This document shows positions 967 through 13,027 of a stretch of DNA of 64,000 nt, piece after piece. Every line of letters begins with the position of its first letter. The first letter of the stretch is position 1. Source of the DNA: Rossellomorea sp. y25. Its GTDB lineage: Bacteria; Bacillota; Bacilli; Bacillales; Bacillaceae_B. Under the pieces are notes generated by a model. That model worked only from the letters and a program-made list of their open reading frames with translations, was not told the origin of the DNA and searched no databases. A program made the translations under genes and the position numbers. The stretch spans positions 868,001 to 932,000 of the forward strand of contig NZ_CP145886.1 in NCBI RefSeq assembly GCF_038049935.1, read 5' to 3'.

Positions 967-995
967 TTTACATTCTTCTGAAAATTCGATAGTAT
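967..995 (+). promoter_or_regulatory. putative sigma-A promoter of the catabolic cluster
   Basis: TTTACA (967-972), a 17-base spacer and TAGTAT (990-995) lie upstream of the NTF2-like gene. The expected start near 1002 puts the LacI-type operator at 1031-1046 about 30 bases downstream. That fits roadblock-type repression. Confidence 0.45.
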
Positions 996-1030
996 TCAAT
1001 GTATACAAATACTAATTGTTTTATGAATTT

Positions 1031-1046
1031 TTGAATGCGCATTCAA
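1031..1046. promoter_or_regulatory. LacI-type operator, copy 1
   Basis: Perfect 16-bp palindrome TTGAATGCGCATTCAA with a central CG, as in LacI/GalR-family operators. The same 16 bases recur at 5871-5886 and 7117-7132, with variants at 2277-2290 and 3962-3975. All are next to genes of the cluster that encodes a LacI regulator. Binding by that regulator is inferred. Confidence 0.8.
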
Positions 1047-1084
1047 TATGAAGACTCGTCCTTGAAATAAGGTGGGAGGTAACC

Positions 1085-2098
1085 ATGAGTAATTATCAAG
1101 AAGAGAAAAGAATTGTAAGACGTTACTTCGAAGAGCTCGAGAAATCTACACCAGAAGACGTACAAAGTGTTTTAAAGGAATATACTGGTGAAAATTATAG
1201 TTGGCAAGGAGTCTACCCCTTCCGTGAACAGGAGGGAGTTCAGGCAGTTGCGGAAACCTTTTGGGTCCCTTTATTAAGATCTCTAAAAAAACTGCAGCGT
1301 CGTCAGGACATTTTCATGGCTGGCACAAACGAAATAAGTGGTGAAACATGGGTCATGAGCATGGGGCATTTCATGGGCCTCTTTGATCAAGACTGGATGG
1401 GGATTCGACGAACAGGGAAAATGATCAACCTAAGATATGCAGAGTTCCATTGTGTAGAGGATGGTAAAATCACCAAAACGGGGTTATTCGTTGACCTGAT
1501 CGGATTCATGATCCAGGCAGGAGTGAACCCGCTGCCTCCTTCAACGGGTACATACTTTGTTTATCCAGGTCCAAGAAATCACGATGGTCTGCAATTTGAC
1601 GATGCTCCAGAAGAAGAAGGTGTGAAAACGCTGAATCTTGTCAATCAAATGGTCGATGATTTATCGGAATTGAATAAGAGTGGAGCTATGGGGTGTCCTC
1701 CGGAGGTCCTGGAACGTACTTGGTCGGAGGATATGATTTGGTATGGTCCTGGCGGGATCGGGGCGAGTTATACCATTCCGAGATATCAACAGCAGCACCA
1801 GCTTCCTTTTAGAAATGGTCTTAAGGATAAGGAATTCAATGGTCATGTGTGCCGGTTTGCTGAAGGACAGTTCGCGTGCTTCTTTGGATGGCCGAACCTT
1901 TCGAATACACCAATAGGTGGATTTCTGGGGCTGCCAGGCGGGAATGTTCGAGCTGACATGCAAGTGGTGGATGTGTATTACCGTCAAGGGGATAAGCTTT
2001 CTGAGAACTGGGTTCTGATCGATATCCCTTATTGGCTGAAGCAGCAGGGATTGGATATTTTTGAGCGAACCCAAGGGATTATGAATCCGTCACTTTAA
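1085..2098 (+). CDS. NTF2/SnoaL-like double-domain protein (catabolic cluster)
   Basis: A 337-residue cytosolic protein with two SnoaL/NTF2-like alpha+beta modules, at about residues 1-150 and 180-325. Each has the start helix, a WxGxGG- or WQGVYPF-like turn and a late beta strand (FHCVEDGKITKTGLF; VVDVYYRQGDKLSENWVLIDIPYW). Members of this fold include isomerases, hydratases, lyases and cyclases, so an enzymatic step in substrate breakdown is plausible, but no precise reaction can be named. The start follows GGTGGGAGG. It is the first gene of the LacI-controlled cluster, with its own operator 38 bases upstream. It is related in architecture to the protein at 5902-7095. Confidence 0.75.
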   Translation: MSNYQEEKRIVRRYFEELEKSTPEDVQSVLKEYTGENYSWQGVYPFREQEGVQAVAETFWVPLLRSLKKLQRRQDIFMAGTNEISGETWVMSMGHFMGLFDQDWMGIRRTGKMINLRYAEFHCVEDGKITKTGLFVDLIGFMIQAGVNPLPPSTGTYFVYPGPRNHDGLQFDDAPEEEGVKTLNLVNQMVDDLSELNKSGAMGCPPEVLERTWSEDMIWYGPGGIGASYTIPRYQQQHQLPFRNGLKDKEFNGHVCRFAEGQFACFFGWPNLSNTPIGGFLGLPGGNVRADMQVVDVYYRQGDKLSENWVLIDIPYWLKQQGLDIFERTQGIMNPSL

Positions 2099-2161
2099 GG
2101 ATCAGCGTCATGGTTACGTACATGATCACTTCTCCAACAGTATAAATGGAGATAAGAAATA

Positions 2162-2341
2162 ATGAATGCGTTTACAAAAGGAATGCTTGAAACTCTGCCT
2201 ATAACCATTCCAAACATCTTCGTCTCAATCATAAGCCTCTTAATAAAGGCAGTGGGTAGATCATCTTGCTTTTTTATGAATCCGCATTCAATAAATATGG
2301 ATATGGGGGGTCTTCGTTCAATATGGGTTGGATTGATATGA
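2162..2341 (+). CDS. possible 59-residue small membrane peptide
   Basis: ATG at 2162 is preceded by GGAGAT and opens a 59-codon frame. Its N-terminal half is hydrophobic (residues 13-30, ITIPNIFVSIISLLIKAV), and it ends inside the start of the symporter gene. The C-terminal part reads through the operator at 2277-2290, which argues that at least that part is not constrained as protein. It could be a leader peptide, a degraded transporter piece, or chance. Confidence 0.25.
   Translation: MNAFTKGMLETLPITIPNIFVSIISLLIKAVGRSSCFFMNPHSINMDMGGLRSIWVGLI
2277..2290. promoter_or_regulatory. LacI-type operator, copy 2 (imperfect)
   Basis: TGAATCCGCATTCA differs from the consensus TGAATGCGCATTCA at one position. 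It lies 33 bases before the preferred symporter start at 2323. Confidence 0.65.
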
Positions 2342-3915
2342 CGATTGTCGCAGTATATATGATTGCTCTGATCATTATGGGTTATAAACTGGGGAAGGGA
2401 AATCACACACAGGATGACTACTTTGTAGGTGGGAGATCTGTTGCAACATTCCCGATTGCTCTTTCCATTGCAGCCACCACGGTCAGTGCGAATGGATTTA
2501 TTGGAGGACCAGGCTGGGCGTATGGTTCGGGACTGATCGCTTTTATGTTGAATTTCAGCATACCTATCGTATTAATATTGACGTTATCGATCTTTCTCCC
2601 TTTTTTCTATAATCTAAAGGTGACGTCCATCTATGAATATATCGAAATGCGTCTGGGAGGGAAAAGCAGACTTTTAGTAGTCTTTGGATTTATTGTATCA
2701 AATGTGATTCAAGTAGGTTCGTTCTTATTTATTCCTTCACTGGTCATCCAAACCTTCACGGGATGGTCACTGACGATTGTCGTTCCCATGGTTGTGGCAG
2801 TGGCGATTCTGTACACGTTACTAGGCGGGATTAAAGCGGTTATCTGGACGGATGCGATTCAGATGTTTGTCTTGTGGGGTGGAGTCATTGCTGCATTTGT
2901 CATTATTCTGAGCAATTTAGATATTGGTTTCTTTGAGGCGATGAAGGTTGTGAAAGAAGAGGGGAAATTGGATGCACTTGATTTCTCGCTGGACGCGAAG
3001 TTAGAGAATGGTGTATGGGTTGGCCTGATTGGCGGTCTCTTTATGTGGCTTAAATATTATGCTACGGATCAGACACAGACTCAAAGGATGTTCGCGGCAA
3101 AGTCGATCAATGAAGTGAAGAAGTCGATCTGTATTAGCGGATTTGTGATGAACATTATGTATTTTGTGTTCATGTTCATAGGAGTATTGCTTTTCGTCTT
3201 CTTTGATGGCAGGGAATTCGATAATTCCAACAACATTATGATCACCTTCATTTCTAATAACATCCCTGTAGGAATCTTGGGGCTGATCATGGCAGGGATT
3301 TTTGCAGCTGCCATGTCCAGCATAGACTCCGTACTAAATTCAGTTACGACCGTCTTCATTAAAGACATTTATGAAAAGTTCATCACGAAAGGAAAGCCGG
3401 CTTCTCTAAAGGTTTCGATGGTCTTCACCCTTGTGTTTGGGGTATTGCTGATCGGATTTACATTGATGGCATTCAGCGGTACGACCGCTTCGATCTTAAA
3501 GACAGTGGGCAGCTACCTCTCGTACTTCTCAGGTTCGATACTGGCGATGTTTCTTTTGGCGATGTTCACGAAGAAAGCAAATGATAATGGAGTCGCAATC
3601 GGGTTTGTATTAGGAATCGTCATCACGACCTATATTGGAAACCTTGGGCTGGTGAACTGGCTCTGGAATTATCCGATCGGATGCGTGATCACTCTTATCA
3701 TTGGTTACATTTTCAGCTTACTATTTCAAAAGAATAGAAGAATGGAATTGGAAGAATTCACGTTTAATGGTCAAAGAGCAAGGTTGATAAAAGAAGGAAC
3801 TGTAACAGATGAAAACGGTCATTCCATTGTTCCGGGGGGCATGGACAAATACTCATATGCACTCATCGGATTGTTTATTGCACAGGTGATCATATTGGGG
3901 CTTATCCAGTTATAG
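2323..3915 (+). CDS. sodium:solute symporter (SSS family)
   Basis: A 530-residue integral membrane protein with about 13 hydrophobic helices and the SSS hallmarks: the N-terminal DDYFVGGRS loop, ATTVSANGFIGGPGWAYG in helix 2, LYTLLGGIKAVIWTDAIQ in the middle, and GIFAAAMSSIDSVLNSVTT near helix 8. It should import the cluster's substrate with Na+; the family covers sugars, carboxylates and vitamins, so specificity is open. The start at ATG 2323 is preferred because the longer frame from TTG 2266 would run through the operator, and GGGGGG lies 12 bases upstream of 2323. Confidence 0.85.
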   Translation: MGWIDMTIVAVYMIALIIMGYKLGKGNHTQDDYFVGGRSVATFPIALSIAATTVSANGFIGGPGWAYGSGLIAFMLNFSIPIVLILTLSIFLPFFYNLKVTSIYEYIEMRLGGKSRLLVVFGFIVSNVIQVGSFLFIPSLVIQTFTGWSLTIVVPMVVAVAILYTLLGGIKAVIWTDAIQMFVLWGGVIAAFVIILSNLDIGFFEAMKVVKEEGKLDALDFSLDAKLENGVWVGLIGGLFMWLKYYATDQTQTQRMFAAKSINEVKKSICISGFVMNIMYFVFMFIGVLLFVFFDGREFDNSNNIMITFISNNIPVGILGLIMAGIFAAAMSSIDSVLNSVTTVFIKDIYEKFITKGKPASLKVSMVFTLVFGVLLIGFTLMAFSGTTASILKTVGSYLSYFSGSILAMFLLAMFTKKANDNGVAIGFVLGIVITTYIGNLGLVNWLWNYPIGCVITLIIGYIFSLLFQKNRRMELEEFTFNGQRARLIKEGTVTDENGHSIVPGGMDKYSYALIGLFIAQVIILGLIQL

Positions 3916-3961
3916 GGAATGAGGCTTTGTCATTATCTGAATTTTTAATTATAATGGAATG

Positions 3962-3975
3962 TGAATCCGGATTCA
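3962..3975. promoter_or_regulatory. LacI-type operator, copy 3
   Basis: Perfect palindrome TGAATCCGGATTCA, 79 bases upstream of the LacI gene. It keeps the TGAAT/ATTCA arms but has a CCGG centre instead of GCGC. Suggests autoregulation. Confidence 0.6.
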
Positions 3976-4053
3976 TCATTCTCGCTAGATTATCGGAATA
4001 CCATAACAACCGGGTTTAATACACGAAGGCAACTTTTGAAAGGGTTTTGAAAA

Positions 4054-5085
4054 ATGAAAGCCAGAATTAGCGCATATGATGTGGCGAAACAGGCAAGTGT
4101 TTCACAATCGACCGTTTCCAGGGTCCTGAACAATTATCCTCATATCAAGGAATCTACAAGAAGGAAAGTCCTTGAAGCGATAAAGGAATTAGGGTTTACA
4201 AGGGATGAGATTGCCAGAAGCCTTGCCAGTAATAAAACGAGAACCATAGGATTGATTGTCGGGGATATCACGAATCCTTTCTTTGCCGAATCAGCGAAAG
4301 TGATTACGGGAAAAGCACAGGAGATGCAGTATGATGTGATCCTTTGTAATACGAATCACAATGAAGAGAACCTGGATAAATATATTCAAACCCTTAAAGG
4401 GAAGCGAGTCGATGGGATCATCATTGCCTCTGCAGATAAAAACAATCAAAGAATCAAAGAATTATATGATCAAGGATTTCCTGTCATTCTGTTCAATAGT
4501 ATCTTGGAACACGAGAAGGCGAATTATATAGCCGTCAACAACTACAAAGGAGCTAGACTTGCGGTGGAACATCTTTATCAATTGAACCATCGCCGCATTG
4601 GCTATATTGCAGGTCCTTCGAAGTATGTCACCACCCATTTGAGGAATTTAGGATACAAAGAAGCACTAGAGGACTTAGGGATTGTCGGAAACGATCAGTT
4701 TGTCTACAACAAAGAGTTTTCTTACGATGAAGTTTATCAGTTTACCAAAAAGTTATTAAAACAGAGTGACCGGCCAACAAGCTTTTTCTCTGCTTCCGAT
4801 CAAATGGCCCTTGCCGTGTTAGATGCTGCAGCTAGTGAAAACATCAAGGTACCGGAAGAATTATCAGTCGTAGGATTTGATGATATTGATTTGGCAAAGA
4901 ATCAATATATTGGACTCACCACCATCACCCAGCCGAAAGAAAAAATGGCAACCCTCGCCTTGGAAAAACTGATCTCCCTGATTGAAGAGGGCGAAGGGAA
5001 AGACGAAGGGTTTCAGATCATATTAGAACCCGATTTAATTCAACGAAAAACAACGGGAGTATGCAGGAACGAGAAAGGAGGATAA
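4054..5085 (+). CDS. LacI-family transcriptional regulator of the catabolic cluster
   Basis: A 343-residue DNA-binding repressor. The N-terminal helix-turn-helix and hinge (residues 5-60, AYDVAKQASVSQSTVSRVLN then RSLASNKTRTIGLIV) precede a periplasmic-binding-protein-like effector domain with GDITNPFF, VDGIIIAS and the C-terminal SVVGFDDIDLA. It lies inside the cluster between transporter and SDR, and five palindromes of LacI type surround it, so it very likely controls this regulon. The effector is presumably the substrate or an intermediate. The ribosome site is weak (AAAGGG). Only three bases separate its stop from the SDR start, so the two are co-transcribed. Confidence 0.9.
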   Translation: MKARISAYDVAKQASVSQSTVSRVLNNYPHIKESTRRKVLEAIKELGFTRDEIARSLASNKTRTIGLIVGDITNPFFAESAKVITGKAQEMQYDVILCNTNHNEENLDKYIQTLKGKRVDGIIIASADKNNQRIKELYDQGFPVILFNSILEHEKANYIAVNNYKGARLAVEHLYQLNHRRIGYIAGPSKYVTTHLRNLGYKEALEDLGIVGNDQFVYNKEFSYDEVYQFTKKLLKQSDRPTSFFSASDQMALAVLDAAASENIKVPEELSVVGFDDIDLAKNQYIGLTTITQPKEKMATLALEKLISLIEEGEGKDEGFQIILEPDLIQRKTTGVCRNEKGG

Positions 5086-5088
5086 GAA

Positions 5089-5850
5089 TTGAAGCACTTT
5101 GCTGAATTGAAAGGGAAAAGGGTCATGGTTACGGGAGGAAGTAAAGGCATTGGAAAGGATATCGCGCTCTCCTTTGCCAAACTGGGGGCCACAGTGGTGA
5201 TTTCAGGGAGGAATGATGAAGCCCTGTCAGCTGCTGTCCTTGAGCTGAAACGTTACTCCCCCGATTGTTCTTATGTGAAGGCCGACATCCGGCATGTAGC
5301 GGACATTCATAAGATGGTGGATGAGGCTGCCGCTCATATGGGGGGACTCGATGTACTGGTCAATAACGCAGGAGTGAATATTCCTAAACCAGCCATAGAA
5401 GTGACGGAGGAAGATTGGGACTCAATCCTTGATACAAATCTTAAAGGAAGCTTCTTCTCCTCCCAGCGTGCAGCGAAGTATTTTCTTTCACAAAAAAGTG
5501 GGAAGATCATCAACATTGTTTCACAGATGGCATTCGTTGGCTATATCAAGCGGGCAGCCTATTGTTCCAGTAAGGGAGGGGCCGTGCAAATGACCAAAGC
5601 TCTTGCTGTTGAGTGGGCACCCTACAATATCAAGGTTAATGCAGTGGCTCCAACATTTATTGAAACCGAGCTCACATCCAATATGTTTGAAGATCAAGAT
5701 TTTTATCAAGACGTGATCAATCGAATCCCATTAGGGAAACTTGCCCAACCTTCTGATGTGACAGGAGCGGTGTTATTTCTCGCTTCTGACATGGCAAACT
5801 TTGTAACGGGTGAAACCATCAAGGTTGATGGAGGTTGGACCGCAATTTAA
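5089..5850 (+). CDS. short-chain dehydrogenase/reductase (SDR)
   Basis: A 253-residue classical SDR. It has the cofactor-binding TGGSKGIG motif (residues 16-23), NNAG (around 91-94), the catalytic Ser in NIVSQMAF, the YxxxK active site in AAYCSSKGG and the C-terminal VDGGWTA. It resembles gluconate-5-dehydrogenase and 3-oxoacyl reductase types. It probably interconverts an alcohol and a ketone of the cluster's substrate with NAD(P). The TTG start at 5089 is supported by AAAGGAGG seven bases upstream, beginning inside the LacI gene end. Confidence 0.85.
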   Translation: MKHFAELKGKRVMVTGGSKGIGKDIALSFAKLGATVVISGRNDEALSAAVLELKRYSPDCSYVKADIRHVADIHKMVDEAAAHMGGLDVLVNNAGVNIPKPAIEVTEEDWDSILDTNLKGSFFSSQRAAKYFLSQKSGKIINIVSQMAFVGYIKRAAYCSSKGGAVQMTKALAVEWAPYNIKVNAVAPTFIETELTSNMFEDQDFYQDVINRIPLGKLAQPSDVTGAVLFLASDMANFVTGETIKVDGGWTAI

Positions 5851-5870
5851 AGAGTATCTTTTATTGCATT

Positions 5871-5886
5871 TTGAATGCGCATTCAA
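5871..5886. promoter_or_regulatory. LacI-type operator, copy 4
   Basis: TTGAATGCGCATTCAA, identical to the copies at 1031 and 7117, immediately before AAAGGAGGA of the next gene. An ATG inside the palindrome could be mistaken for that gene's start. Confidence 0.8.
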
Positions 5887-5901
5887 AAAGGAGGAATCAA
5901 G

Positions 5902-7095
5902 ATGCCGAAAGTGGATGAACGAAAAGAGGAAAAAGTAGAAATGGATCGTCCTCTTCATCAAGAACCTCAACATGACAACGTATTCTATGGCGACTCAACC
6001 GAAGTGAACCGTGTTGGCTATGCGGATTACAATGAATTTTCAAAGAATACAAAACGTAAACAAAGAATGAATGGATTCGACGAGGAGTATCTCGATTTTG
6101 TGGATTATATCATCAAGATCACCCATCGCATCTGGGAAGAGAAAGGGATCGGGATTATTTATCAAACCTATCATAATGATGTCACCATGCATACGGGAAC
6201 AGCCCATATACAAGGTGTAAATGAGGTGGTGTCCGGGACCTTACAGGCTTTGCACGCCTTTCCGGATCGAAGGCTTGTTGGTGAAAATGTCATATGGTCA
6301 GGTAATGATGAGGAAGGATTTTTATCTTCTCACCGTATCGCATCGAGTGCTACCAACCTGGGGGATTCCTCATTCGGGCCTGCTACAGGTAAGAAAGTTT
6401 TCTTTCGGACCACGGTTGACTGCTTTGTCCATTCAAACCGGATCGTGGAAGAGTGGCTTGTACGAGACAACCTGTATCTAGTCAAGCAGTTAGGATTTGA
6501 TCCCATCGAAGTGGCAAAGAAACTGGCACAGAATTCGGAGAACAAGACACCGGCACTGCAATCCCATTTCGGTTCAAGCGGTACAATGGAAGGGCAGCTG
6601 ATGCCTGCCGTTTATTCTCCGAAGTCAGAAGGTTTTGAAATTGGTGATTTTATTTTAGCCATGTACAACAAAGTGTGGGAATGGAGATTATTCAATCATG
6701 TGAAGGACTTTTACGCCGATCATGCGGTGGTCCACTATATCTGCAATAAAGATTTGATAGGCACTAGCCAGATCCAGGGAATGCTCGTCAGTTTGTTTGC
6801 CTCTTTCCCAAGTGCTAAATGTATGGTCGAGAGAGTGACCTGTAACGAGGGAGCCCAAAAGGGTGAATGGGATGTTGCCGTAAGGTGGAGACTGCAAGGG
6901 ATTCATGAGGGGATTGGGTATTTCGGTCAGCCAAGTGGAAAAACAGTAGAGGTATTGGGGATTTCTCACCTGAAAGTGAGGAATGAGAAAATTGTAGAAG
7001 AATGGATGACATTTGACGGCTTGGATGTACTGAGGCAGATCTATCTGGGTACAGAGTCTAATGCTGACGATGCCGAAGCCGAAACATACGAATAA
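5902..7095 (+). CDS. NTF2/SnoaL-like double-domain protein, second (ester-cyclase-like)
   Basis: A 397-residue cytosolic protein with two SnoaL-like modules at about residues 50-190 and 220-385. Each ends in a strand with the motif IVEEW (VEEWLVRDNLYLVKQLG; VEEWMTFDGLDVLRQIY), typical of ester-cyclase/SnoaL proteins. The polar, charged first 45 residues look unstructured. The reaction is unknown; the fold suits cyclisation, isomerisation or water addition. The start at ATG 5902 follows AAAGGAGGA; the upstream ATG at 5875 lies inside the operator. It is preceded by the SDR gene and followed by the dehydrogenase pair. Confidence 0.8.
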   Translation: MPKVDERKEEKVEMDRPLHQEPQHDNVFYGDSTEVNRVGYADYNEFSKNTKRKQRMNGFDEEYLDFVDYIIKITHRIWEEKGIGIIYQTYHNDVTMHTGTAHIQGVNEVVSGTLQALHAFPDRRLVGENVIWSGNDEEGFLSSHRIASSATNLGDSSFGPATGKKVFFRTTVDCFVHSNRIVEEWLVRDNLYLVKQLGFDPIEVAKKLAQNSENKTPALQSHFGSSGTMEGQLMPAVYSPKSEGFEIGDFILAMYNKVWEWRLFNHVKDFYADHAVVHYICNKDLIGTSQIQGMLVSLFASFPSAKCMVERVTCNEGAQKGEWDVAVRWRLQGIHEGIGYFGQPSGKTVEVLGISHLKVRNEKIVEEWMTFDGLDVLRQIYLGTESNADDAEAETYE

Positions 7096-7116
7096 ATCAT
7101 CTTTCATTACTTAGTT

Positions 7117-7132
7117 TTGAATGCGCATTCAA
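7117..7132. promoter_or_regulatory. LacI-type operator, copy 5
   Basis: TTGAATGCGCATTCAA again, directly abutting AAAAAGGAGG of the alcohol dehydrogenase gene. The same operator-plus-Shine-Dalgarno block (operator, AAAAGGAGGAA) occurs at 5871-5895, so the block was duplicated as a unit. Confidence 0.8.
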
Positions 7133-7147
7133 AAAGGAGGAAATACC

Positions 7148-8371
7148 ATGTCAGTACAAACGTCTATTCAGAAAGATCCTTCAAGTATAAATCAGGATTT
7201 TCATATGCCTGGGAATATCCGTTTCGGAGTCGACACGTTTTATTCCTTACCGGATGAGATTAAGAAATTAGAGGTTAGCAGAATCGTCATTATTAGTGAT
7301 AAAGGTCTTGAACGGGTTGGAGTCGTTGAACGTGTACTGGAATTAGTGGAATCGGCAGGAATCGAGAGTAACGTGTTTACAGACATTGAAGGAGAGCCGA
7401 CCTTTACTCTGGTACAAAAATCAGTAGAGTTTGTGAAGAAATCAGGAAGTGAACTCGTGATCGGCATCGGAGGCGGAAGCGCTCTGGATGTTTCCAAAGC
7501 GACGGCAGCTCTGGTGGATAAAGATGACGTGAGCCCGTATTTAAGTGGAGCCAAAACCATTGATTCCAGACAGGTCAAGTGCATTCTGCTTCCGACGACT
7601 TCAGGAACCGGATCGGAAGTGACGATGAATGCCATATTCGGGGATGAAGAGGAGGAAGTAAAACGGGGGATTGTCAGCAGGCATCTTCTGCCGGACCTCG
7701 CCATCATCGATCCTGCTCTGACACGCTCATGCCCGCAACGGGTCACCGCTGCTTCAGGTGTGGATGCTTTCACACATGCACTTGAATCGTATGTTGCCGT
7801 GAGAGCTACACCCTTAACGAAGATCTATGCTGAAAAGGCCATGAAGTTATTTAGTTCGAACATCACGAAGGCAGTTCATAACGGGAAAGACATGGAAGGA
7901 CGTATCGGAATGAGTTGGGTAAGCATGTTGGCAGGAGTTTCGTTAGCCAATGCAGGTGTGGGGGCCGTCCATGCCTTAGCTTACCCCCTCGGTGGAAAGT
8001 ACCACATCGAGCATGGAGTTGCCAATGCTCTCCTTATGCCGTTTGTTTTCGAAGAGACAGGGAAAACGTGCATGCAGGAAATGGTAGAGGTTGCAAACTA
8101 TCTTGAATTAGGAGATTACTCAAAAAAACCACACCAGGCGCTTAAGGCAGTAGTGGGATATCTATATGAATTACTGACGAATCTTGACCTCCCCACATCA
8201 TTAGCGGAGCTTGGGATTATGGAGGAAGATTTGCCTCTACTTGCCGGGCAAGCCTCACAGATTGATCGCCTTTTGTCCAACACGCCGTACCAATTGACCG
8301 AAAAGAAGATCTTAGCCATTTATCAAAAGGCATTCACGGGATACGAGAAAGGACGTGATGAAGGTTGCTGA
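7148..8371 (+). CDS. iron-containing alcohol dehydrogenase
   Basis: A 407-residue group III (Fe-dependent) alcohol dehydrogenase. The N-terminal Rossmann-like part has GIGGGSALDVSKA, and TTSGTGSEVT contacts the cofactor. The helical C-terminal part carries the metal ligands in GVDAFTHALESY and GAVHALAYPLGGKYHIEHG. It oxidises an alcohol, or reduces an aldehyde, with NAD(P). The next gene encodes an aldehyde dehydrogenase, so alcohol to aldehyde to acid is the natural reading. ATG 7148 follows AAAAAGGAGGAA; an upstream ATG lies in the operator. It overlaps the next gene by 7 bases, a sign of translational coupling. Confidence 0.9.
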   Translation: MSVQTSIQKDPSSINQDFHMPGNIRFGVDTFYSLPDEIKKLEVSRIVIISDKGLERVGVVERVLELVESAGIESNVFTDIEGEPTFTLVQKSVEFVKKSGSELVIGIGGGSALDVSKATAALVDKDDVSPYLSGAKTIDSRQVKCILLPTTSGTGSEVTMNAIFGDEEEEVKRGIVSRHLLPDLAIIDPALTRSCPQRVTAASGVDAFTHALESYVAVRATPLTKIYAEKAMKLFSSNITKAVHNGKDMEGRIGMSWVSMLAGVSLANAGVGAVHALAYPLGGKYHIEHGVANALLMPFVFEETGKTCMQEMVEVANYLELGDYSKKPHQALKAVVGYLYELLTNLDLPTSLAELGIMEEDLPLLAGQASQIDRLLSNTPYQLTEKKILAIYQKAFTGYEKGRDEGC

Positions 8372-9798
8372 AAAATCAACTCAAAAAGAAACTCTACATT
8401 GATGGCAGGTGGCAGGAAGCAAAGAACTATTATGAGTTGAAATCCCCATTCAGCGGAGACGTCATTGCCAGCGTCCCTTTGGCAGATGAACGGGAAGTGG
8501 AAGACGCCTTAGAGAGTGCACAATCAGGTTCTGAGAAAATGAAGCAATTGACTTCCTTGGAACGGTCGGACATCCTTGAGCGGGTTTCGCGACTTTTTGA
8601 AGAGAGATTTGAGGAAGCAGCAGAAATCCTTGCCATGGAATGTGCGAAGCCGATAAAGGCAGCTCGTGCTGAAATCGCGCGAACGATTGAAACGTATAAG
8701 TTTGCAAGCGAAGAGGCGAAAAGGATTCACGGGGAGACCATTCCGATGGATGCTGCCAAAAGTGGGAAGGGACGATTTGCCTTTACGATCCGTGAGCCTT
8801 TAGGGGTCATCGCAGCGATCACGCCCTTTAACTTCCCATTCAACCTTGTGGCCCATAAGCTGGGTCCCGCCTTTGCTGCCGGGAATTCAGTGGTCCTGAA
8901 GCCGGCGAATCAGACGCCTTTAAGTGCACTCCTTACAGCGGAAATTTTTGAGCAGGCAGGTCTGCCGGAAGGGGCGTTAAACGTAGTCACGGGGAGAGGC
9001 AGTGTCATTGGAAATCAGCTCGTAAAAGATCCGAGAGTGAAAATGGTCACCTTTACGGGAAGTGTAGAGGTTGGGCTTGGCATTAAGGAAAAGGCAGGGT
9101 TGAAAAAAGTAACACTTGAACTGGGTTCCAACTCTGCTGTCGTTGTCGATGGGGCGGAGGATATGGATGCTGTCGTTGATCGATGTGTGGAGGGGGCGTA
9201 TTCGTTTGCCGGTCAAGTATGCATTTCGGTGCAGAGAATATACGTGCAGGAAAAACTCTATGACTCTTTTGTTGATCAATTCATTGAAAGAACGAAACAG
9301 CTTGTGATCGGCGATCCAATGTCAGAAGGCACAGACTTATCGGCCATGATCAATCAAGGGGAGGCAGAAAGGATCGAAGAGTGGTTCAAGGAGGCAACAA
9401 AAGCAGGTGCGCACATCTTATATGGAGGAAAGCGGGAGGATGCCATCATACACCCAACTGTGATCACGGGGGGATCATCCACTTTATCCCTGAACTGCAA
9501 GGAAGCATTTGCTCCCATTGTCACGATCACACCATACGGTTCTTTGGATGAAGCGATCGGACTCGTGAACGATTCGGAATACGGATTGCAGGCGGGTATC
9601 TATACTACCTCTGTTCATAAAGCATTCGATGCCCTGCACCGACTTCAAGTCGGGGGAGTCATGATCAACGATATCCCTACTTTCAGAGTCGATCATATGC
9701 CATATGGTGGTGTAAAGAACAGCGGTACCGGCCGTGAAGGAATCAAATATTCCGTGGAAGAGATGACAGAACTGAAACTAGTGACATTTAAATTGTAA
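8365..9798 (+). CDS. NAD(P)-dependent aldehyde dehydrogenase
   Basis: A 477-residue ALDH-superfamily enzyme. It has ITPFNFPFN, GNSVVLKPANQTP, the FTGSVEVG cofactor loop, LELGSNSAVVV with the catalytic Glu, and the nucleophilic Cys in FAGQVCISVQR. The NFPFN and SVQR contexts resemble lactaldehyde, glyceraldehyde-3-phosphate (NADP) and semialdehyde dehydrogenases. It likely oxidises the aldehyde made by the alcohol dehydrogenase or released by the HpaI aldolase. The TTG start at 8365 overlaps the preceding gene. Confidence 0.9.
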   Translation: MLKNQLKKKLYIDGRWQEAKNYYELKSPFSGDVIASVPLADEREVEDALESAQSGSEKMKQLTSLERSDILERVSRLFEERFEEAAEILAMECAKPIKAARAEIARTIETYKFASEEAKRIHGETIPMDAAKSGKGRFAFTIREPLGVIAAITPFNFPFNLVAHKLGPAFAAGNSVVLKPANQTPLSALLTAEIFEQAGLPEGALNVVTGRGSVIGNQLVKDPRVKMVTFTGSVEVGLGIKEKAGLKKVTLELGSNSAVVVDGAEDMDAVVDRCVEGAYSFAGQVCISVQRIYVQEKLYDSFVDQFIERTKQLVIGDPMSEGTDLSAMINQGEAERIEEWFKEATKAGAHILYGGKREDAIIHPTVITGGSSTLSLNCKEAFAPIVTITPYGSLDEAIGLVNDSEYGLQAGIYTTSVHKAFDALHRLQVGGVMINDIPTFRVDHMPYGGVKNSGTGREGIKYSVEEMTELKLVTFKL

Positions 9799-9844
9799 GA
9801 ATAGTCAATAAATAAAATTTTGAATGATAGAAAGGGAGATTGCT

Positions 9845-10468
9845 ATGCCGACAGAACAACCGAAAGTGAAACGATATGTATCCAATGAAAAGATGGAAGA
9901 AAACTGGATCGTCCGATTTGATGATCTAAAATCAAAAGCCATTCCTCTCATGTTTATTGATAGTATCATACCAGGTCATCAACGCCTGAATTACGCCCTG
10001 ATCGGGGATACGGCCAGTGAAAATGATACCTATTCCCCTGAAATAACAGAACCACACGGGTTTCAAATCGGCATGGTGAAAGCACCTCCAGGGAATGGAC
10101 CGGCTTACCATACTCATGACTACATCGAAGCGTTTCTTCCTCTTTCCGGAAAATGGCGTTTCTATTGGGGAAATAGTGAAGATGAGATCGAGGGTGAAAC
10201 CATCATTGAAGAATGGGATTTAATTTCTCTGCCTCCAGGGTTATGGAGAGGCTTTGAAAATATCAGTGAGGATGATGCTTGGATCTTTGCCGTGCTTGAA
10301 CAGCATGAAGTATTCAACGGGAAAGATCCATACTGGGCTCCACAGGTCGTCAGGAAAGCTGCGGAACATGGCTTCCATGCAGATCAATCAGGAAAAATGA
10401 TCAAACCTGAGAATTTTTCAGCACTTGAGAAACAAATGGCGGAGAAGCTGAGGGCGGGAGAGAAATAG
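9845..10468 (+). CDS. cupin-domain protein
   Basis: A 207-residue protein with a cupin barrel at about residues 75-160. The metal-binding first motif appears as PAYHTHDYIEAFLPLSGKWRFYWG (H-x-H and a later E), and the second motif as EEWDLISLPPGLWRGFENI. The second motif lacks the usual His, so metal binding may be incomplete. It could be an isomerase or dioxygenase-like enzyme, or a sensor, for the cluster's intermediate. The start at 9845 follows AAAGGGAGA. A half operator (TTTTGAATGATAG at 9819-9831) remains upstream. Confidence 0.75.
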   Translation: MPTEQPKVKRYVSNEKMEENWIVRFDDLKSKAIPLMFIDSIIPGHQRLNYALIGDTASENDTYSPEITEPHGFQIGMVKAPPGNGPAYHTHDYIEAFLPLSGKWRFYWGNSEDEIEGETIIEEWDLISLPPGLWRGFENISEDDAWIFAVLEQHEVFNGKDPYWAPQVVRKAAEHGFHADQSGKMIKPENFSALEKQMAEKLRAGEK

Positions 10469-10471
10469 TAG

Positions 10472-11173
10472 ATGAAGAAAGAAGCGTTAGTATTCTTACC
10501 GGGTACGCTTTGTGATGAGAGACTTTGGGAGCATCAGTTGGAACATCTGACTGATGTTTCCGATCCTTCCGTTTCAATGTTAACTGGAGCAGACACCATA
10601 GAGGGAATGGCTGAATCCGTCTTGAAGCATGCCCCTGAACGCTTTGCTCTAGCCGGGCTTTCACTTGGTGGGATTGTGGCAATGGAAGTCATCCGGCAAG
10701 CACCAGAAAGAGTGACCAGACTTGCCCTATTGAACTCGAATCCACATGGCCCCAAGCCAGAGCAGTTGGAAAGCTGGAAGAGCCTTATGTCAAAAGTGGA
10801 ATCTGGGCAGTTCCAAAGCATAGTAGAGGAAAAGTTGTTACCGAATCTCATTCATCCCGGCAGGCAGGAAGATGACCAGTTGGTATCAACCATAAAGGAT
10901 ATGGCGGAGAGAGTAGGACCAGAAGGATATGTGCAGCAATTAATGGCCGTTTCTACGCGTTCTGACCTTCGGGAAGGCTTAAGGCAAATCAACGTTCCCA
11001 CGCTCCTTTTAGTAGGAAGGGAGGATCAGGTTTGCCCCTTGTCCTTACATGAAGAAATGCAGGCAACTATTTCAGAGTCCCGGTTAGTTATCGTAGATGA
11101 TTGTGGCCATTTAAGCAGTTTGGAGCGACCGGAAGAAGTGACGGCTGCTTTACGCAACTGGCTGATTGAGTGA
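10472..11173 (+). CDS. alpha/beta hydrolase
   Basis: A 233-residue alpha/beta-hydrolase. It has the oxyanion region FLPGTLCDERLW, the nucleophile Ser in GLSLGG (about residue 72), the acid Asp in LLVGREDQVCP and the His in DDCGHLSSLERPE. It is close in size and pattern to enol-lactonase-like and carboxylesterase-like enzymes. In this cluster it may open a lactone or ester formed upstream. It starts three bases after the cupin stop, so it is in the same operon. Confidence 0.85.
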   Translation: MKKEALVFLPGTLCDERLWEHQLEHLTDVSDPSVSMLTGADTIEGMAESVLKHAPERFALAGLSLGGIVAMEVIRQAPERVTRLALLNSNPHGPKPEQLESWKSLMSKVESGQFQSIVEEKLLPNLIHPGRQEDDQLVSTIKDMAERVGPEGYVQQLMAVSTRSDLREGLRQINVPTLLLVGREDQVCPLSLHEEMQATISESRLVIVDDCGHLSSLERPEEVTAALRNWLIE

Positions 11174-11201
11174 AAGGGTGTAAAGTAGGGAGGTAATTTC
11201 A

Positions 11202-11996
11202 TTGATCAATCGTGTAAAGGATAAACTCAGAAGCGGGGAAAGAGTACTTGGAAGTTTCATTGGATTCTATTCTCCCAACTTCATTGAAATGATCGGGTAT
11301 GCCGGATTTGATTTCGTGGTTATAGATGATGAGCATGGGGCATTCAGTTCTTCTGAATTAGAAAACATGATCCGGACAGCCGAATCAGTGGATCTAGTAC
11401 CCATTGTCCGAGTCTCATATGATCCGTCCAGTATCCAGAAGGCTTTGGATAGAGGGGCCAAAGGGGTACAAGTACCGATGGTCAATTCAAAGGAAGATGC
11501 CATAAAGGCTGTGAAAAGGGCGAAGTTCCCCCCTTTAGGAACCAGGGGTGTCGCTTATTCACACAGGGCGGCGCGCTATGGAAATCAAGGAGGGAAGGCA
11601 TTCTTAGATAGCTCCGATGAAAACATCTTGGTCATTCCACATATAGAAACCCTTGAAGCGGTGGAGAATATTGGGGAGATCATGGGGGTCGAAGGTATCG
11701 ATGTTCTTTTCATCGGTACAACCGACCTATCGGTTGATATGGGATTTAAAGAAGAAGGTGCCAACCATCCTGAAGTTCAAGGAGTCATACGAAACTTGTA
11801 TCAAACAGCATCAGAAAATAACGTTGCGATTGGAACGGTTGCGGCTGATAGTACAGGAGCGCAGCAAGCTTTTGAAAAAGGGGCAAATTATGTAGGGGTT
11901 GTAGCGAATTCAGTGATTCTTAAGGCGCTTCAGATAGTGGTAGAAGATACTAAAAGAGTTGGAAATGAAATGACCAATAGAGGTATTAGAAAGTAA
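11202..11996 (+). CDS. HpcH/HpaI-family aldolase
   Basis: A 264-residue class II (divalent-metal) pyruvate-type aldolase. It has DFVVIDDEHGAFSSSEL, PIVRVSYDPSSIQKALDRGAKGVQVPMV, the GTRGVAYSHRAARYG Arg/Gly stretch, PHIETLEAVENI (metal-binding Glu) and DVLFIGTTDLSVDMG (metal-binding Asp). Family members split 2-keto-3-deoxy acids into pyruvate or a related oxoacid and an aldehyde. This gives a likely end point for the pathway and suggests a sugar acid or hydroxylated oxoacid as substrate. The TTG start at 11202 follows GGGAGG. Last gene of the cluster. Confidence 0.88.
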   Translation: MINRVKDKLRSGERVLGSFIGFYSPNFIEMIGYAGFDFVVIDDEHGAFSSSELENMIRTAESVDLVPIVRVSYDPSSIQKALDRGAKGVQVPMVNSKEDAIKAVKRAKFPPLGTRGVAYSHRAARYGNQGGKAFLDSSDENILVIPHIETLEAVENIGEIMGVEGIDVLFIGTTDLSVDMGFKEEGANHPEVQGVIRNLYQTASENNVAIGTVAADSTGAQQAFEKGANYVGVVANSVILKALQIVVEDTKRVGNEMTNRGIRK

Positions 11997-12208: not shown

Positions 12209-13027
12209 TTACAGAAATTTCTTCAAAGCCATATGAAGACTGGATGTCACAGTGATGTCCGAAGAATTGATTCCGAGATGGGTCATGGTCTGGGCGATCT
12301 CGGGTCTTATTCCGGATAGGATGGTTTCGATTCCGATGAGGGATAAGGCATCCATTACCTTGAAGATGCGGTCTGCTACCATCGTATCAATGATCGGAAC
12401 GCCGGACAGGTCAACCACCAGGTATTCTAAGGATAATTCGCTCCCTCTTGAGAGTGCTTTATCCATCAGTTCTTGGGCTCTTTCGGTGTCGATGTCACCG
12501 ATCAAAGGGAGTATGCCGACTTGATTGGTTATTTTAATCACCGGGATGGATAATTCTAATGCTACAGCTTCTGCAGCGTTGATCCGTGTATAAAATCTTC
12601 TTGTATACGACATGCTCAGCCAATGTACGGCCTTGTCCACCACTGCGTCAAAATCTGAAATCAGGTTATAGAATTCATCGAATGTCAAGTTGAAAGCGGA
12701 AGCTTCCTCTTTTATGATTTGTCCGATTAAATTTCGGTAATCTCTTACTTCGTCCAGAGCAATCTCCAATGGAAGGTTGAAATTCACGAGTGTATCGACT
12801 GCCTCTGATCCCCACTCCTGTAATTGCTCGAAGGCCGTATCCAAGTCACTTTCGATCGATTTTGCATAAATGTCAATGATATTCTCACGCCAACTATGAA
12901 GCTTCGATTCTATGTTGCTGTATTGGCTTGATCTCAAATTGTCCTTTTGAACGATAAGCTCTTGCTTTTGACTCAATACTTTGTCACAGATAGCTTTCGT
13001 GTATGTTCGTTTACCTTGATCGATCAT
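12209..13027 (-). CDS. RsbR-family stressosome protein (STAS domain)
   Basis: A 272-residue protein. The N-terminal ~150 residues are an all-helical RsbR-type sensor region, and the C-terminal ~110 residues form a STAS domain. The STAS domain carries DLSGVPIIDTMVADRIFKVMDAL and GIRPEIAQTMTHLGI, whose two Thr residues match the phospho-acceptor positions of RsbR paralogues. Such proteins build the cytosolic stressosome with RsbS and RsbT and feed the general stress sigma factor. No RsbS, RsbT or sigma gene is adjacent, so it is an orphan paralogue. The start at 13027 follows AAAGGAGAG. Confidence 0.85.
   Translation of the reverse strand: MIDQGKRTYTKAICDKVLSQKQELIVQKDNLRSSQYSNIESKLHSWRENIIDIYAKSIESDLDTAFEQLQEWGSEAVDTLVNFNLPLEIALDEVRDYRNLIGQIIKEEASAFNLTFDEFYNLISDFDAVVDKAVHWLSMSYTRRFYTRINAAEAVALELSIPVIKITNQVGILPLIGDIDTERAQELMDKALSRGSELSLEYLVVDLSGVPIIDTMVADRIFKVMDALSLIGIETILSGIRPEIAQTMTHLGINSSDITVTSSLHMALKKFL

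Follow-up and report, generated by a model that had tools for sequence, protein, structure and literature searches.

A predicted LacI regulon with two double-NTF2 proteins in Rossellomorea sp. y25, possibly for the breakdown of an anionic polyhydroxylated compound

The 64,000-nucleotide stretch of the Rossellomorea sp. y25 genome analyzed here (the window; C1:868001-932000 of 4.63 Mb) contains ten genes on one strand (+), between positions 1085 and 11996, which on balance we consider to form a LacI-repressed catabolic regulon with predicted operators. In order, they encode a first SnoaL-type protein (SnoaLA), a sodium/solute symporter (SSS), a LacI-family repressor, an SDR dehydrogenase, a second SnoaL-type protein (SnoaLB), an iron-type alcohol dehydrogenase (Fe-ADH), an aldehyde dehydrogenase (ALDH), a cupin, an α/β hydrolase, and an HpaI-type aldolase. 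The reading that we favor, with some reserve, is that this set serves the import and breakdown of an anionic polyhydroxylated compound. A preliminary description of this DNA had given the same gene order and families, with which the open reading frames, Pfam, and NCBIfam agree (Pfam was searched for nine of the ten proteins, and the HpaI aldolase was assigned through NCBIfam only). It had also proposed a single LacI regulon, a view that is supported by the LacI domains (PF00356 and PF13377) and by the conserved sites described below.

Operators and layout of the locus

Five near-identical palindromes had been reported for the locus. Three are exact copies of TTGAATGCGCATTCAA and a fourth, ATGAATCCGCATTCAA, departs from it at two positions, whereas the fifth, GTGAATCCGGATTCAT, differs from the consensus at four positions and is instead a perfect 14-bp palindrome. 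Allowing up to three mismatches, the window has five matches, four of them within the locus; the expectation for the window is 0.41, and not one of 100 shuffles had as many. Across the 4.63-Mb genome, all three exact copies of TTGAATGCGCATTCAA and one of the two copies with two mismatches fall within the locus; with up to three mismatches, there are 31 places in the whole genome versus 8 for the reversed pattern. Operators 4 and 5 sit inside what appears to be a single transcription unit, where they could serve as roadblocks or act on weak internal promoters. The start codons of three genes were refined (SSS, ATG 2323; SnoaLB, ATG 5902; Fe-ADH, ATG 7148); the SSS reading frame is open from 2266, and the preferred start lies downstream of operator 2.

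Similar sites recur in related loci. The scan covered 24 loci, 14 from Bacilli (including the window and its close relative L005, which is not independent of it) and ten from other groups. Two to five operator-like sites were found in each of 11 of the 14 Bacilli loci, the window included, where 0.05–0.45 are expected per locus. They mostly lie close before SnoaL, SSS, LacI, SDR, Fe-ADH, ALDH, cupin, or transporter genes; a SnoaLA-type gene is preceded by such a site in L005, L006, L007, and L044, and copies centered on CCGG are found before lacI in L006, L044, and L046. The sites, with their central CG, are thus conserved in relatives, in keeping with the initial reading of the palindromes as LacI operators. 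Outside the Bacilli, five of the ten loci have one or two sites with up to three mismatches (0–0.3 expected). A separate scan of the 24 loci for perfect CG-centered palindromes, the counts of which carry no chance level, revealed TTGCATTCGAATGCAA three times in Novosphingobium L025 and two palindromes similar to it before the cupin gene of Ensifer L024. Pantoea L021 has TTGAATACGTATTCAA, and in both clostridial loci (L010 and L011), SnoaLB is preceded by TTTCAAACGTTTGAAA; the remaining loci had none, or other sequences. Klebsiella L050 has near-perfect sites of the TTGCATTCGAATGCA type between lacI and hisD, and such sites occur twice in Roseomonas L034.

Table 1. Genes, predicted operators, and promoter-like sequences of the locus (window positions).
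Feature	Position	Strand	Remarks
promoter-like TTTACA-17-TAGTAT	967..995	+	upstream of operator 1; 9/12 matches, weak
operator 1, TTGAATGCGCATTCAA	1031..1046	+	exact copy; upstream of SnoaLA
SnoaLA, double-NTF2 protein, 337 aa	1085..2098	+	PF07366/PF12680; model pLDDT 90.1, pTM 0.90
operator 2, ATGAATCCGCATTCAA	2276..2291	+	two mismatches to TTGAATGCGCATTCAA; upstream of SSS
SSS sodium/solute symporter, 530 aa	2323..3915	+	PF00474; TIGR00813 272 bits vs cut-off 184
promoter-like TTGTCA-17-TATAAT	3927..3955	+	before lacI; 11/12 matches, best of the region
operator 3, GTGAATCCGGATTCAT	3961..3976	+	just 3' of the lacI -10 box; read from the sequence
LacI-family repressor, 343 aa	4054..5085	+	PF00356 58.9 bits, PF13377 114.7 bits
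SDR dehydrogenase, 253 aa	5089..5850	+	PF13561; NF005559 242 bits vs cut-off 215; Ser-Tyr-Lys motif
operator 4, TTGAATGCGCATTCAA	5871..5886	+	exact copy; directly 5' of the SnoaLB ribosome site
SnoaLB, double-NTF2 protein, 397 aa	5902..7095	+	PF07366 in two stretches; model pLDDT 87.1, pTM 0.85
operator 5, TTGAATGCGCATTCAA	7117..7132	+	exact copy; directly 5' of the Fe-ADH ribosome site
Fe-ADH, iron-type alcohol dehydrogenase, 407 aa	7148..8371	+	PF00465/PF25137
ALDH, aldehyde dehydrogenase, 477 aa	8365..9798	+	PF00171
cupin, 214 aa	9824..10468	+	HxHx3E kept; Arg at the usual last-His position of the cupin motif
α/β hydrolase, 233 aa	10472..11173	+	PF00561; GLSLG nucleophile motif
HpaI/GarL-type pyruvate aldolase, 264 aa	11202..11996	+	GarL-type NCBIfam model 166 bits, under cut-off 393

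Among named relatives, Rossellomorea aquimaris (L005) has the nearest locus, with a SnoaLB that is 96% identical. A gene 93% identical to that at window positions 12209-13027 (- strand), which we take to encode an RsbR-type stressosome protein, likewise lies 3' of the R. aquimaris locus. Just upstream of the window locus, a type I dockerin domain (PF00404, 39 bits), unexpected in this bacterial family, is found in the protein encoded at positions 25-780, the open reading frame of which runs leftward past the window edge. The other genomic copy of the operator with two mismatches (C1:3994447-3994462; L048 5447-5462) is situated outside the locus; it precedes, by ∼220 bases, a gene resembling that of a cell-wall amidase, and a gene next to it resembles uvrB (both labels by eye).

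Entry and core modules across loci

A comparison of 42 loci, chosen by a SnoaL or cupin match, suggests that the set splits into an entry module and a core module. The entry module is composed of the double-SnoaL proteins and a transporter, joined in other loci by a HisD/HpsN-like dehydrogenase and an amidase; the core module consists of the cupin, the α/β hydrolase, an HpaI or RraA aldolase, and usually the SDR. Cupin, hydrolase, and HpaI or RraA are found together in 30 of the 42 loci. Related gene sets occur in Bacilli, Deinococcus, and alpha- and gamma-proteobacteria, and also in a Pelagibacteraceae (SAR11-type) genome and in roseobacters. In L046, from the same genus as the window, the two modules are separate and oriented toward each other (LacI-SDR-Fe-ADH-ALDH-cupin-hydrolase-HpaI versus amidase-ABC-LacI-SnoaLB-HisD). 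The core is found without SnoaL in Klebsiella L050, Rhizorhabdus L052, and the Otn loci L053-L055, and SnoaL without the core, in the stretch read, in clostridial L010 and L011, Vibrio europaeus L028, Vibrio pelagius L018, a haloarchaeon, and others; on the V. pelagius plasmid of L018, an Otn-type core (L053) is located 134 kb from SnoaL. Among plasmid records with the cupin, many of which are near-identical strains (15 are Sinorhizobium), 46 of 55 also match SnoaLB, where 0.04 would be expected if the two were independent; the matches lie within 15 kb of each other in 44 of the 46, the two exceptions being V. pelagius. The preliminary description had depicted a regulon built around the two double-NTF2 proteins. 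Both are indeed present, but they belong to the entry module only, a SnoaL protein being found in 25 of the 30 core loci, and the cupin is equally constant.

The oxidizing enzymes vary among the 30 core loci. Fe-ADH and ALDH are present in ten, all of them Bacilli, and a HisD-like dehydrogenase in 19, with both in five; OtnK/OtnC are found in four (with OtnI in three of them), and these are loci where neither oxidizing set is complete. HisD-type enzymes perform both oxidation steps from CH2OH to COOH alone, and Fe-ADH plus ALDH and the HisD-like enzyme seem to do this one job. Because the pair can be replaced by HisD/HpsN-like or OtnK/OtnC genes, ALDH need not dispose of the aldehyde released by the aldolase, which is the role that it had first been given. 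The other functions initially proposed, namely uptake, oxidation of an alcohol and of an aldehyde, a hydrolase step, and aldol cleavage yielding pyruvate, are in keeping with the family assignments. An amidase or nitrilase occurs in 12 of the 42 loci, and a HisD-like gene is present in all 12. Two HisD-like paralogues each are found in L020, L021, L023, L025, L033, and L035, and in most of these loci, one paralogue is next to the SDR and its partner is close to SnoaLB or to the amidase/nitrilase. A MetE-like gene (cobalamin-independent methionine synthase II family) is present in five of the 42 loci (L014, L015, L017, L029, and L032), the genera of which are marine or halophilic.

These assignments suggest a model for the pathway. 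The symporter would import an anionic polyhydroxylated compound with sodium, and SnoaLA and SnoaLB would act first, removing or rearranging a substituent by acid/base catalysis to yield a common intermediate. The SDR would then oxidize a secondary alcohol, and Fe-ADH with ALDH would convert a CH2OH group to a carboxylate, a conversion that would fall to the HisD/HpsN-like enzyme elsewhere. A ring, lactone, or diketone may be opened by the cupin and the α/β hydrolase, after which HpaI would cleave a 4-hydroxy-2-oxo acid, releasing pyruvate together with what is probably a hydroxy or keto acid of four carbons. Binding of the substrate or an intermediate to LacI would release it from the five sites, including that of lacI itself. 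The size of the aldolase substrate is suggested by the exchanges between loci. OtnK takes 3-oxo-tetronate; if it does so here, then four carbons are left after pyruvate, and the aldolase would act on a seven-carbon compound. RraA-type aldolases yield two keto acids, and the exchange of HpaI for RraA would thus favor a tertiary alcohol; the RraA of L017 has only two weak matches among solved structures, none named as an HMG/CHA aldolase, which neither support nor exclude such a cleavage. Taken together, cleavage to pyruvate and a four-carbon hydroxy or keto acid is suggested, perhaps from a seven-carbon substrate.

Several observations weigh against this reading. Since the loci were chosen by a SnoaL or cupin match, the other genes alone are informative, through their co-occurrence. 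Two of the 30 core loci (L007 and Rhizorhabdus L052) lack all three oxidizing or kinase sets, and the cupin family also has members whose neighborhood contains a LacI gene at most (L051) or nothing else of the set (L056). Three Bacilli loci (L012, L045, and L047) had no operator-like site, and the promoter-like sites in the region of the window number 11, fewer than the shuffle mean of 20.1.

Enzyme families and candidate substrates

Both SnoaL proteins exceed the Pfam SnoaL gathering score of 28.4 bits (38.9 and 93.8 bits), and each is predicted to fold as two NTF2 domains, as had been proposed from the outset (pLDDT 90.1 and 87.1). In structure comparisons, single domains of the models match SnoaL, SnoaL2, and AclR, and the whole-chain models match Lsd19 and MonB as two-domain proteins, although the superposition is poor. 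The catalytic residue of SnoaL is Asp121. All four domains retain an Asp near the end of an EW/D motif: Asp137 and Asp313 (D137, D313) are invariant in 38 aligned SnoaLA sequences, and Asp189 and Asp372 (D189, D372) are conserved in at least 90% of 32 aligned SnoaLB sequences. The latter two align with an Asp of 8ysb and IdmH in a sequence profile, a weak match (E 1e-4 to 7e-3); SnoaLA alone gave no match to solved structures at E ≤ 0.01. Given this conservation, all four domains could be catalytic.

SnoaLA is ∼75–80% identical in Clostridium, Ilyobacter, Cetobacterium, and Vibrio (named clostridial, fusobacterial, and Vibrio matches among the best 120 of 3682), a level of identity that points to a fixed function and to recent spread; the fusobacterial and archaeal relatives were found as proteins or as one plasmid locus only. 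A search of E. coli genomes with the V. europaeus SnoaLA DNA gave no match. At E ≤ 1e-40, SnoaLB was found in two of 398 genomes of its own class and six of 150 relatives, the source genome being counted in both, and the locus is therefore patchy rather than core in its class. As many as five SnoaL genes occur in one locus (L017). The Halobellus limi plasmid locus L029 (10596-16989) has, close to an ABC transporter and aldA, four SnoaLA-like genes, one more SnoaL gene, and the MetE-like gene. In L012 (11465-12520) and L036 (14895-16000), SnoaL genes are in two pieces, apparently broken or frameshifted, and in Roseomonas L034, a gene annotated as N-methyl-L-tryptophan oxidase (solA; 10670-11833) is situated directly 5' of SnoaLB.

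The closest solved chain to the SSS protein is 5nv9, a 'putative sodium:solute symporter' (197 bits) that we take to be a sialic acid carrier, followed by multivitamin and monocarboxylate transporters. The nearest NCBIfam models are lactaldehyde reductase for Fe-ADH (273 bits, under the cut-off of 523) and lactaldehyde dehydrogenase for ALDH (550 bits, under 650); the α/β hydrolase scores 113 bits against the PcaD model (cut-off 256). The aldolase could be aligned residue by residue with the solved HpaI aldolases 7v8t and 4b5s and scores 166/164, 160, and 127 bits against the GarL, HpaI, and KDR aldolase equivalogs, below the cut-offs of 393/407, 369, and 441. Naming the substrate through NCBIfam was thus rejected, as the aldolase, ALDH, and Fe-ADH all miss the equivalog cut-offs. 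In 28 aligned cupins, two His and the Glu are kept and Arg occupies the position of the last His. The cupin alone gave no match to solved structures at E ≤ 0.01. The last, third His of the motif is used by β-diketone dioxygenases, and because Arg replaces it, we do not claim the cupin as a Dke1-like dioxygenase.

Against this background, a linear sugar-acid route is a possible, although unlikely, alternative. Oxidation by the SDR, lactone opening by the hydrolase, dehydration by a SnoaL protein or the cupin, and retro-aldol cleavage by HpaI would give pyruvate and lactaldehyde or glycolaldehyde, to be handled by ALDH and Fe-ADH, a sequence of the type found in sulfo-ED and non-phosphorylating deoxysugar routes. 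The SDR passes the cut-off of a glucose-1-dehydrogenase subfamily, the models nearest to ALDH and Fe-ADH are lactaldehyde enzymes, though under cut-off, and LacI and CUT1-type transporters suit sugars. However, the annotation of the plasmid loci places no sugar-acid dehydratase within the clusters (unannotated loci were not checked), and the use of RraA for HpaI and of HisD for ADH/ALDH would fit aldehyde products less well. In L025, an IlvD/Edd gene is located ∼12 kb away from SnoaLB.

As a special case of the favored reading, and one that we regard as doubtful, the substrates would be mycosporine-like amino acids (including fungal mycosporines) or gadusols. Gadusols and mycosporines have a C7 ring with a C(OH)(CH2OH) center and would, therefore, satisfy both the seven-carbon and the tertiary-alcohol conditions. 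SnoaLA and SnoaLB would strip amino-acid substituents off the ring, the CH2OH on the tertiary carbon would be oxidized by the HisD-like enzyme or by Fe-ADH and ALDH, and the cupin and hydrolase would cleave the 1,3-dione; HpaI or RraA would then release pyruvate and an oxaloacetate- or 3-oxo-tetronate-type acid, entering OtnK/OtnC in some bacteria. Anaerobes and some vibrios would retain the stripping step only and use the freed amino acids. On paper, the exchanges between HpaI and RraA and between HisD and OtnK-OtnC would fit a C7 tertiary alcohol, SnoaL occurs without the core in the two clostridial loci and in V. europaeus, and the HisD-like gene accompanying every amidase/nitrilase (12/12) is what glutaminol side chains could need. 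According to a review, Vibrio harveyi has been suggested to hydrolyze amino acids from shinorine and porphyra-334, with no gene named in that passage, bacteria form mycosporine-glycine and 4-deoxygadusol, and mycosporine-glutaminol is found in fungi and terrestrial cyanobacteria (PMC3083659).

In V. europaeus L028, genes for an SSS transporter and an L-serine ammonia-lyase diverge from MFS-SnoaLA, again as this proposal might predict. Between the divergent genes lies ATGAATGCGTACCCAT, with a copy at two mismatches before lacI, where 0.15 is expected at three mismatches; the element was chosen by eye from this intergenic sequence, so that its first copy is the query and matches by construction. 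A third copy, with three mismatches, lies away from the cluster at L028 21970, and a first palindrome scan of L028 had found none. Other evidence runs counter to mycosporines and gadusols: V. harveyi is not among the named SnoaLA matches (best 120 of 680, the majority without a name), the core of Klebsiella L050 comes with no SnoaL gene, the third His of β-diketone dioxygenases is missing from the cupin, and the weak matches of the L017 RraA include no named HMG/CHA aldolase. The LacI proteins of clostridial L010 and L011 are 30–31% identical to that of the window, and the V. europaeus LacI is nearer to that of Ruegeria (its best match, 35%), such that another substrate is possible there. No gene-defined pathway of this kind was found among the open-access PMC papers listed. 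If the proposal were true, then the double-NTF2 enzymes would be the long-missing hydrolases that strip amino acids off sunscreen-type C7 compounds, in a widespread pathway.

It is improbable that the double-NTF2 proteins are binding or scavenging proteins, with catabolism left to the other genes. The five of 30 core loci without SnoaL would be consistent with such a role, but the Asp kept in all four domains (D137, D313, D189, and D372) and the number of SnoaL genes in L017 argue for enzymes. Least probable is an organosulfonate substrate, to which the HisD-like protein of L013 might point through its match to solved sulfopropanediol 3-dehydrogenase (323 bits versus 263 to histidinol dehydrogenase), the enzyme of relatives thus being closest to the dihydroxypropanesulfonate dehydrogenase HpsN: the window locus has no HpsN-like gene, the annotated loci have no gene labeled as desulfonating, and the one HisD homologue of the genome, outside the locus and 40% identical, is likely the biosynthetic enzyme. 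A sulfonate was set aside because the genome has no HpsN-like gene beyond this likely HisD. A gene for an unassigned glycyl-radical enzyme is located ∼9 kb from SnoaLA in L028; this family includes desulfonating enzymes.

Comparison with known systems

Returning to the breakdown of an anionic polyhydroxylated compound, no described pathway with this gene set was found among the open-access PMC papers listed, in line with what had first been stated. If the double-NTF2 proteins are catabolic enzymes, then the fold would have a new use, and a substrate used by marine, soil, and leaf bacteria of several phyla is worth finding; the operators, the small gene set, and a host that is not known to be a pathogen make it testable by induction screening.

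Parts of the pathway resemble systems that are already characterized. Inositol (iol) catabolism, with its dehydrogenase, dehydratase, hydrolase, isomerase, aldolase, and aldehyde dehydrogenase, works alike on paper, but the window locus has no kinase and no iol family is among the matches listed (best 25 for the SDR and ALDH). The OtnI/OtnK/OtnC tetronate route is annotated near the same cupin, HpaI, and hydrolase genes in V. pelagius, Salinivibrio, Thioclava, and Ensifer NER9; it is absent from the window locus, which instead has Fe-ADH with ALDH and the SDR. The window aldolase belongs to the same family as the class II pyruvate aldolases HpaI, GarL, and RhmA and aligns with solved members, but it falls under the cut-off of all four NCBIfam models matched, so that none of their substrates is implied. 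Among solved proteins, HpsN is the nearest to the HisD-like gene product of L013; its counterpart is found in relatives rather than in the window, and there the HisD-like gene sits among SnoaL, SDR, cupin, and aldolase genes.

The SnoaL/AknH cyclases and SnoaL2/AclR act in polyketide synthesis. The proteins described here differ in having two domains per chain, in belonging to a predicted catabolic LacI regulon, and in their weak profile match (SnoaLB, E 1e-4 to 7e-3). The polyether epoxide hydrolases Lsd19 and MonBI/MonBII are double-NTF2 proteins, as SnoaLA and SnoaLB would be; the low TM-scores to 3rga (0.31 and 0.27), together with rmsd values of 17 and 19 and 9–10% identity, point to a different arrangement of the two domains. 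Double-NTF2 enzymes are thus already known from Lsd19 and MonB, and it is their use in a catabolic regulon that seems new. To this, the comparison of loci adds, at the level of sequence, the probable division into entry and core modules, three alternative oxidizing or kinase sets, the conservation of the predicted operators, and the suggestion of a C7 compound with a tertiary alcohol.

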